Below the pieces are notes generated by a model. That model saw nothing but the letters and a program-made list of their open reading frames with translations, had not been told where the DNA came from and made no database searches. From positions 1-64,000 of the forward strand of contig CADBQU010000013.1 in NCBI GenBank assembly GCA_902796905.1: a DNA stretch of 64,000 bases, given 5' to 3'. This document shows positions 21,084 to 37,405 of this stretch, one piece after another. The position numbers and the translations under genes were made by a program. Origin of the DNA: Oscillospiraceae bacterium. Lineage in GTDB: Bacteria; Bacillota; Clostridia; Oscillospirales; Acutalibacteraceae. Every line of letters starts with the position of its first letter. The first letter of the stretch is position 1.

Positions 21084-21139
21084 GGAAAGAATAAATTTTT
21101 ATAAATTAAATTTTTTATAAATAAGAAAGGAAAAAAGCT

Positions 21140-21574
21140 ATGACTATTACAGAAAAAGCAGCCTATTTAAAAGGCCTTGCAGAAGGTATTAAAATTGAAG
21201 ATAACGATAACGGCAGAATTTTAAAAGCCATTATTGATTTATTGGAAGATGTTTGCGATGAAGTTGCGGATTTAGAAGAAAATGCAGCCGAAATAAGCGA
21301 ACAGGTAGACGCCGTAGACGAAGATTTGGCAAATTTGGAAGACTATGTTTACGAAGAAGACTGCGACGGTAATTGTGATGATTGCGACGGTTGTTACGAT
21401 GAAGAAGACGACGATCTTTTTGAAGTTGAGTGTCCCGATTGTCATGATGTAGTTTATTTAGATTACGATATGATTGAAAAGGGCGAAATTACTTGTCCTA
21501 ATTGCGGCAAAAAAATAGAGCTTGAAATACCCGAATGCTGCTGCGAAGACGACGATTGCCAATGCAAAGACTAA
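21140..21574 (+). CDS. CD1247-type acidic zinc-ribbon protein
   Basis: 144 residues: a helical N-terminal domain (about 1-72, starting ITEKAAYLKGLAEG, the CD1247-type domain), an acidic cysteine-rich linker (EEDCDGNCDDCDGC), and a zinc ribbon with CPDCHD and CPNCGK pairs (about 99-125), then a second Cys cluster at the end. The gene commonly follows efp in Clostridia. Function unknown; nucleic-acid or protein binding through the zinc ribbon is a guess. AAAGG precedes the ATG. Confidence 0.85.
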   Translation: MTITEKAAYLKGLAEGIKIEDNDNGRILKAIIDLLEDVCDEVADLEENAAEISEQVDAVDEDLANLEDYVYEEDCDGNCDDCDGCYDEEDDDLFEVECPDCHDVVYLDYDMIEKGEITCPNCGKKIELEIPECCCEDDDCQCKD

Positions 21575-22188
21575 ACACTGCTCGCCGCACTTTAATTTGG
21601 TGCGGCGCTTTTTTATTATTGTTTTGCGGTTATTTAAGCTGTTTGGTTTTAATAGGCAACAGCTTTGACCGCGTTTTTCTTCTTAATTTGGCAAAAATAA
21701 GGAATTCGGTTTTAGGCGCCGTTATGTATGGATTTACCTGTTTGGGCAGCGTATGGGGCGTTGTAAGCGTTTTGGCTTTGTGTTTAATATTTTTAAACCG
21801 AAAAAAACTGGCGTTGCCGTTAATAGCGGAAGTAACCGCTTCTTGGATGTTAAACGAAGTTGTTAAGCATATAGTAAAAAGGCCCAGACCCGAATTTAAA
21901 ATTATATTTGAAAACGGATACAGCTTTGCTTCGGGACATGCCGTAAATAATACGGTTTTGTATGTATCGCTTTTTTTATTGCTTAGATATGTTTATAAAA
22001 TTTCGGCAAAAAAGCTGTGGCCGATACTTTTAATTCCGGCAATAATTTCTTTTTCAAGGCTTTATTTTGCAGTGCATTATTTAACCGATGTTTTGGCGGG
22101 AATTTGTTTTGGATTAATGGTAGTAATGATTTTTGTTTTAATATACAAAAAAATATTCAAAAACGATTTTATAAAATTAAATACATAA
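21562..22188 (+). CDS. PAP2-family membrane phosphatase
   Basis: About 208 residues with six hydrophobic segments and the full PAP2 acid-phosphatase signature: KRPRPE (motif C1), SFASGHA (C2, His) and SRLYFAVHYLTDVLAG (C3, His and Asp). Relatives dephosphorylate undecaprenyl pyrophosphate or phosphatidylglycerol phosphate at the membrane. The start is uncertain: ATG 21562 overlaps the preceding gene by 13 bp but has no clear ribosome site; an in-frame ATG at 21535 and a downstream TTG are alternatives. A terminator-like hairpin (21583-21614) lies within its first codons. Confidence 0.82.
   Translation: MQRLNTARRTLIWCGAFLLLFCGYLSCLVLIGNSFDRVFLLNLAKIRNSVLGAVMYGFTCLGSVWGVVSVLALCLIFLNRKKLALPLIAEVTASWMLNEVVKHIVKRPRPEFKIIFENGYSFASGHAVNNTVLYVSLFLLLRYVYKISAKKLWPILLIPAIISFSRLYFAVHYLTDVLAGICFGLMVVMIFVLIYKKIFKNDFIKLNT
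21583..21614 (+). terminator. Terminator-like hairpin inside the 5' end of the PAP2 gene
   Basis: CGCCGCAC pairs with GTGCGGCG around a 9-nt loop, followed by CTTTTTT. It follows the stop of the CD1247-type gene by 8 bp, exactly where a terminator would be, yet is in frame within the PAP2 coding region if that gene starts at 21562. Confidence 0.75.
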
Positions 22189-35208: not shown

Positions 35209-35340
35209 ATACAAAATATTAAACAAAAAATATATAATTTACACAAAAAGTTTTCAAAAGACAAATTTATATATCTTTTTGTGGTTAAAAATGTTATAAT
35301 TTAAATATCAAAGAAAGTTGACTTTTATGGAGGACATATT

Positions 35341-35589
35341 ATGAGAAAAAAACTTTTAGCGGTATTTTTAAGTTTGGTTTTTGTAATAGGTTTATGCGGA
35401 TGCACGCAAAATAATGTAAAAAGTAACAGTTCTAAACAAAATGTTTTAGATAATAACGATTCGGACAGTTCTGCGGTAAGTTCCGAAAAAAATAAATCTC
35501 AAAATCAAAAATCAAAAAGTATAAACAAAAAATCAAGCAAAAAAGGTACAAAAAGCGGCGCAAAAAATGCAACTAAAAAAATAAAATAA
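35341..35589 (+). CDS. Lipoprotein N-terminal part, split from CotH body by frameshift
   Basis: 82 codons encoding a lipoprotein signal with a classical lipobox (LCGC, Cys21) followed only by a Ser/Asn/Lys-rich linker that ends at TAA 35587-35589. It has GGAGG before the ATG. Such a piece has no domain of its own. The CotH-kinase reading frame begins at once in the next frame, open from 35577, with GTP-like continuation KVKDNRIVPVVHNGDLKYL before its first candidate start. One added A in the A7 run at 35575-35581 would join both into one secreted protein of about 612 residues. Confidence 0.75.
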   Translation: MRKKLLAVFLSLVFVIGLCGCTQNNVKSNSSKQNVLDNNDSDSSAVSSEKNKSQNQKSKSINKKSSKKGTKSGAKNATKKIK

Positions 35590-37181
35590 AAGTTAAAGAT
35601 AATAGAATAGTACCTGTTGTGCATAATGGAGATTTAAAATATTTAGCGTTTTCAGTTAAAGACAATGCTTCGCTTCCGTTTGATTTTGAAAGTGATTTTG
35701 ACGGTAACGATATTACCGCCACTTTGCCGGACGGAATAGATTTGACAAAACTTAAACCTATGTTTAAAACCTCTACAGGTAAGCTTTACTTAAACGGTAA
35801 AGAAATAAAAAGCGGAACGGCTGTTGATTTTTCAAAAACCGTAAAATTATCCGCGGATAAAAAGAATGAATATACGGTTAATTTAAGTAAAATAAATACC
35901 GGCATACCTTCTTTATGTATCACAACCCAAAATTATGAGATTATAAACAGTAAAACAGAAAAGAAAAATTGCAATATGTTTTTGGCCGGAGGAGATACCA
36001 AAAACGGTAATTATGCAATGCCTAAAGGAAAAATTGTTAAAGGAAAAGGAACGGTCAAAAACAGAGGTTGGTCAAGTTGGTATACATACCCTAAAAAAAG
36101 CTATACTTTAAAGCTTAAAGATAACATTACAATGTTAGGATTACCGGCAGGTAAGGAATGGGTATTGGCAGCAAACTATAACGATGTTACGATTATAAGA
36201 AATGCCGTTGCGGCGCAAATGGCTTATAATATGGGTATGGAATTTGTTATGGACATACGTTTTGTGGATTTATGGGTAAACGGAAATTATAACGGAAGTT
36301 ATCAACTTATAGAAAAAATAGAAGTTGATAAAAATCGAGTTAATATCACTAAATTTAAAGAAAATTTGGCTCCGGATAAGGTAGGATATCTTTTAGAGAT
36401 AAACGGACACAATAATCCGGAAGAATGGGGTAAATTTACTCACGGAAAAGACGCCGACCGACCTTCAAAATGGAAAAAAATAAATAATTACACAACTTAC
36501 GATCCAATAAGCGGAGATATATTTTTTACGGCAAAAAAATCCGGCAGAATATTTAATATAAATAAGCCTTCGGATTCAAAATTAATGAAACTGAGCGAAA
36601 ACAAACGGAACAAATATATAGACTATATTTATAACTATTTAAACGCATTTGAGAACGCCGTATATAGCGATAATTACACGAAAGCGTCAAAATATATGGA
36701 TATGACTTCGTTGGCAAAATGGTATTGTATAAACGAGATGGCAAGCAATAACGACAGCCAACTTCATTGTTCGTGCTATATGTATAAAGATGTTGGCAAA
36801 AAAATGAAAATGGGACCGCTTTGGGACTTTGACGGCGGATACGGCAACTATATTTATGCCAATGAGCAAAACCAGCATTTGCCGTTTTTAGATAAGCATG
36901 CGTGGTTTGAACATCTTTTAAAAATGCCGCAATTTAAGGCGGAAGTTAAAAAAGTTTGGAACAACGCAAGGAGCAAAATAGGTGCGTTAGACGGAGAAAT
37001 TGTAAAGTTAGGGAATATTGTTAAAAACGCGCAGGAACTTAATTATGAACTTTGGGATTTAACCGATACGCTGGGATATATTTATCCGCAATATTATTCT
37101 TACGATGAGCAAATAAACTATATGAGAAGATATGTTAAATCAAGAACAAGTTATATGGACAGAAAAGTTGTAAGTTGGTAA
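35577..37181 (+). pseudogene. CotH-kinase family protein, body lacking its own secretion signal
   Basis: The frame is open from 35577; the first possible start codon is GTG 35619, without a ribosome site. From 35619 it gives 520 residues: a beta-sandwich N-domain (about 1-95), then the CotH atypical kinase domain (about 110-420) with WSSWYTYPKKSYTLKLK, WVLAANYNDVTIIRNAVA, VDLWVNGNYNGSYQLIEK and MGPLWDFDGGYGN (metal-binding Asp). Spore-coat CotH of Bacillus phosphorylates coat proteins; gut Clostridia have secreted relatives. The missing signal peptide is carried by the preceding frame, so the gene is frameshifted, phase-variable, or a sequencing error. Confidence 0.85.
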
Positions 37182-37280: not shown

Positions 37281-37295
37281 TATTTTAATTAAAAA

Positions 37296-37379
37296 GCGGC
37301 GGCAAAAGCCTAAAGGCTTAAAACAAAGCATTTGGCTTTGTTTTAAAACGTTTTTTTAAAAAACGTTTTTTGCCGCCGC
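37296..37379. repeat. Cloverleaf repeat, copy I
   Basis: A 12-bp outer stem GCGGCGGCAAAA / TTTTGCCGCCGC encloses AGCC-TAAA-GGCT, AAAACAAAGC-ATTTG-GCTTTGTTTT and a palindrome built on AAAACGTTTTTT/AAAAAACGTTTT. It lies between convergent CotH and sigG. Confidence 0.92.
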
Positions 37380-37405
37380 AAAGCGTATATAATTTTATTG
37401 CTGCT

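Follow-up and report, generated by a model that had tools for sequence, protein, structure and literature searches.

In the window, by which we mean the whole 64,000-nucleotide stretch of DNA analyzed, the coding sequence of a CotH-type kinase is divided between two overlapping reading frames in a linker stretch that overlaps a run of seven adenines (A7). The question raised by this locus is whether the division serves as a device that turns secretion of the kinase on and off or has a more ordinary origin. We suggest that a recent single-base insertion or deletion in an A-rich linker led to a frameshifted, probably non-secreted CotH allele, a reading to which we assign a probability of about 0.58. 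The frame change is most likely an ordinary mutation and not a dedicated on/off switch.

Two Frames Meet within 13 Bases

Frame 1 encodes 82 amino acids beginning MRKKLLAVFLSLVFVIGLCGC, with an LCGC lipobox and a GGAGG upstream, and ends at a TAA at positions 35587-35589; a Pfam profile search of this frame found no family above the cut-off. The CotH frame contains 534 codons without a stop (35577-37178), directly preceded by an in-frame TAA at 35574-35576. These two stops confine the crossover to the 13 bases from 35577 to 35589. The features, all on the forward strand, are as follows.

35329-35333, +: GGAGG ribosome-binding site for the lipoprotein start (scored in the sequence)
35341-35589, +: frame 1, a lipoprotein signal peptide (lipobox LCGC) and a 62-residue linker rich in Lys, Ser, and Asn
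35575-35581, +: A7 run at the frame crossover (read from the sequence), one of the seven A7 runs in the cotH gene
35577-35589, +: sole stretch in which both frames can be joined, consisting of five A of the A7, T, A4, and TAA (three-frame translation)
35577-37181, +: frame 2, a predicted CotH-type kinase of 534 codons (Pfam PF08757, AlphaFold, Foldseek)
35619-35621, +: GTG, the first start-like codon of frame 2, without a ribosome site
36825-36833, +: DFD motif (D417-F418-D419), invariant in 22 homologs

Three-frame translation agrees with the layout given by the first-pass annotation, namely a lipoprotein signal and Lys/Ser linker at 35341-35589, an A7 run at 35575-35581, and an open CotH frame from 35577. 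Its placement of the split at the A7 run stands only in part. The crossover stretch does overlap the run, but it also holds an A4 run (35583-35586), and the break can thus not be pinned to A7 alone. Moreover, the linker region from 35461 to 35600 has an A content of 56%, with roughly one in two 13-nt windows overlapping an A6 or A7, so the coincidence of crossover and A7 carries little weight. The GTG at 35619 lies 29 bases past the stop of frame 1 and just ahead of the first domain; when scored, it was preceded only by a chance AGAA, and no usable ribosome site was found for frame 2.

One Ancestral Gene for a Secreted Kinase

Frame 2 matches the Pfam CotH family (PF08757) with E = 4e-39 and 135 bits against a curated cut-off of 23.8, over profile positions 2-322 of 322. 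It comprises an N-terminal beta-strand domain (approximately residues 20-117) and a kinase domain (approximately residues 160-527). An AlphaFold model of frame 2 as it stands has a mean pLDDT of 82. Its residues 1-12, which precede the first domain, are modeled as disordered (pLDDT <50), and the break is consequently predicted to sit in a flexible linker. A Foldseek search with the model found Bacillus cereus CotH (5jda, E = 4e-12); among solved structures, a single-sequence search gave no match and a profile search found 5jd9. Of 29 alignment columns without variation among 21 homologs, the window CotH preserves 28, D417 and D419 included, and no second lesion was found in the 1.6-kb CotH frame. 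By profile, motif, and predicted fold, frame 2 is a predicted CotH-type protein kinase, consistent with the earlier proposal that it encodes a whole CotH kinase lacking a ribosome site. What it shares with the B. cereus protein (5jd9/5jda) is the kinase-domain profile match, the DFD motif, and the predicted fold, but identity to the solved CotH structures is 12-14% and only in the fold alignment. An additional N-terminal beta-strand domain, together with a lipoprotein signal located in another frame, sets it apart from B. cereus CotH. The spore-coat role of the CotH family is not carried over to the window protein, which is likened to it by sequence and predicted fold.

Homologs encode this architecture continuously. 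In the four members of the genus that have cotH, the gene is a single frame of ∼660-680 amino acids with an N-terminal membrane signal, and the order of membrane signal, Ser-rich linker, and two domains is that of the window copy. Matches below 1e-40 in 398 family genomes are all contained in single frames of at least 600 amino acids, the window's own copy excepted. Hence no conserved frame transition was found in close homologs, whether in the genus or in the 398 family genomes, all being single-frame. The linkers of relatives differ from the window linker and the A7 tract is not conserved. With homologs in a single frame, no ribosome site for frame 2, and both the conserved residues and the fold prediction intact, there is little doubt that the two frames derive from one ancestral secreted CotH gene. 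The first-pass annotation had likewise derived both frames from one secreted protein, and the comparison of the locus in relatives that it called for bears this out, as close relatives have one continuous frame, in the genus with an N-terminal membrane signal, and not two separate proteins. An origin as separate genes was rejected because frame 2 is without a ribosome site and relatives are single-frame. A long-dead pseudogene was also rejected because the 534-codon frame and the conserved columns are intact.

The window CotH is 50-54% identical to those of genus members. In comparisons with the same genomes, the neighboring pgeF is 54-58% identical and sigG, a slower gene, ∼70% identical. The divergence of CotH thus matches that of pgeF and, with conserved columns intact, implies that loss, if any, was recent. 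Judged from these comparisons, selection on the CotH coding body either persists or ended only recently. Scans of genome contigs and viral contigs found no same-species or near relatives above ∼54% identity.

A Runs and Broken Frames across the Genome

Run lengths were counted in the window and 20 further stretches of the genome (L100-L119; 366 kb), for a total of 430 kb, of which 372 kb are coding. The coding sequence holds 421 A7, 58 A8, and 3 A9 runs on the sense strand, corresponding to approximately one A7 per kb, and seven A7 are in the cotH gene alone. The A7 at cotH is therefore not unusually long for its genome, whereas the homopolymer of a phase-variable gene is expected to be. Frames matching TilS and thiamin pyrophosphokinase even run through an A9 uninterrupted. 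The ratio of run counts from one length to the next falls from 0.355 (six to seven) to 0.109 (seven to eight); the corresponding values outside genes are 0.315 and 0.085. Selection on reading frames cannot be the whole explanation, since the drop is not confined to genes. Runs longer than seven may be unstable in this lineage, and their contraction is a plausible cause of the drop. Such contraction would offer an ordinary route to the cotH frameshift, and the depletion of runs of at least eight A, both within genes and between them, is consistent with frequent mutational shortening of long A runs.

The sharp drop from seven to eight holds for A/T runs and is also seen in a 112-kb sample of genus relatives (L035-L038 and L090-L095). 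Elsewhere in the genome, an A17 run (L114:15322-15338, equal to G000:C19:35322-35338) is located in frame near the 5' end of aroQ, which encodes a class II dehydroquinase; genus homologs of aroQ align only from query residue 15-18, past the A17. If it is not an assembly artefact, this A17 is a better candidate for phase variation than the A7 of cotH.

A coarse scan of the 430 kb found 85 overlapping same-strand ORF pairs, only three of which have a run of at least seven in the overlap: the cotH pair, one whose downstream frame is preceded by a separate GGAGG, and one in L112 without family matches. No clear ribosome site precedes the second frame in nine of the 85, the cotH pair included; two of the nine lie in L104 and L114, and the pair-by-pair check covered the other seven. 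NCBIfam searches of five other pairs revealed three that are plainly different genes (tyrosine autokinase/Cps4B, SecE/NusG, and FakA/RecG), whereas the other two, in L101 and L112, gave no such clear assignment. The second member of a further pair, at 21125-22188 of the window, is a PAP2 protein. An error-prone assembly as the general cause of broken frames was rejected on the homopolymer and broken-pair counts.

Weighing the Explanations

The present sequence might still yield some full-length secreted kinase through transcriptional or ribosomal slippage at the A7, as the first-pass annotation had proposed. The run is read as ACT_AAA_AAA_ATA, in which the in-frame heptamer T_AAA_AAA is not slippery. 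No in-frame heptamer of the form X_XXZ_ZZN (rule from PMC4066793) is present at the crossover. There are in-frame A_AAA tetramers at 35577-35580 and 35583-35586, but tetramers of the type Z_ZZN hardly shift unless a stimulator is present (PMC4066793), and predicted RNA folds are not unusual downstream (z = -0.27, in a model without pseudoknots) or upstream (z = 0.21). For RNA polymerase, precedents diverge. Reporter tests of the E. coli enzyme detect slippage only at eight or more A (PMC6260861), whereas in IS1447, which is enriched in Firmicutes, an A7 sufficed in a reporter assay (PMC6211511). The A7 of IS1447, however, adjoins a predicted stem-loop, unlike that of cotH, which has no unusual fold on either side. 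Programmed transcriptional slippage is also recognized by a run and a frame transition conserved in homologs, and those of cotH are single-frame. With neither a slippery heptamer, an unusual predicted fold, nor a conserved transition, we regard slippage as quite improbable. Translation of the kinase alone from the GTG at 35619, as a cytoplasmic product of a second gene and perhaps by reinitiation, is very improbable; the codon is conveniently placed, but no ribosome site precedes it, and in relatives signal and kinase form a single protein.

An error in the consensus, such that the frame is intact in the organism and the draft is off by one base, would account for a lone lesion in front of an intact kinase body. 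The assembly is a draft of 53 contigs, and the GeneTack survey assigns singleton frameshifts whose homologs are intact to an indel or a sequencing error, such singletons often being errors (PMC3711429). Yet open genes in this assembly (e.g., tilS) together contain hundreds of A7 runs and dozens of A8 and A9 runs, and broken pairs with long runs are few (three of 85), which argues against systematic under-calling because that would have broken many genes. We therefore consider an error unlikely. Phase variation, in which slipped-strand mispairing reversibly changes the length of the A run and switches secretion of the kinase, has a close precedent for short runs in vaa of Mycoplasma hominis, which is ON with eight A, OFF with seven or nine, and switches at 1e-3 to 1e-4 (PMC524362). 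As in vaa, a short poly-A lies early in a gene for a surface protein, here a lipoprotein, and one base joins or breaks the frame; runs above seven are also possibly unstable here. But alternate alleles and switching are known for vaa, whereas the window cotH is known from one sequence. Scans of genome contigs and viral contigs found no second allele, the tract is not conserved among relatives with differing linkers, and sense A7 runs are so frequent that it is unmarked. Switching by A-run length, put forward by the first-pass annotation, thus received no positive support, A7 being ordinary in this genome, and is unlikely. The more specific idea that a short A run switches secretion of the CotH lipoprotein kinase by exploiting a lineage-wide instability of A runs above seven is improbable.

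The singleton frameshift with intact homologs, being of the GeneTack class, also counts for a recent indel in the linker, the reading that we prefer. The lack of a second lesion in the 1.6-kb frame, where a long-dead gene should have gathered more, was weighed against it. A single gene for a secreted lipoprotein-type CotH kinase was almost certainly the ancestral state, and we infer that the single-base change is truly present in the organism, is recent, and resulted from slippage during replication of the A-rich linker. Ribosomes that initiate at the lipoprotein start would then stop at 35589 and release a short lipopeptide, and the CotH kinase would either not be made from the present sequence or not be exported.

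Genomic Context and Implications

The source genome has a single cotH, near sigG and pgeF, and no VTC gene. The genus is otherwise represented by gut MAGs that bear the names Clostridia or Oscillospiraceae; where a source is given, it is a ruminant. Those with an intact cotH (L035-L038) have it clustered with VTC, DUF4956, and, in some, Cthe_2159-type genes. A grouping of CotH, a polyphosphate polymerase, and DUF4956 is also found next to the Pel genes of Gram-positive bacteria (PMC7112168). Although the window CotH resembles those of the genus clusters in identity (50-54%) and in its order of signal, linker, and domains, its gene is frame-broken, encodes a lipobox where theirs encode a membrane anchor, and is without the partner genes. 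Selection might be weaker on a cotH that lacks its customary partners, in agreement with loss, and the absence of VTC, which sets this genome apart from the four with intact cotH, was counted for an indel. Two more distant cotH loci (L055 and L057) also have no VTC visible alongside, however, making the missing partner weak evidence for loss. Between cotH and sigG, the window has a nested inverted repeat (37290-37385) with GC-rich outer arms (GCGGCGGC/GCCGCCGC) and partial matches elsewhere in the genome.

If the A7 were a switch, uncultured gut Clostridia would offer a case in which export of a CotH-type kinase is phase-variable. Most likely, the locus is an ordinary frameshifted allele, and it cautions against inferring a switch from an A7 run in a genome in which such runs occur about once per kb of coding sequence.
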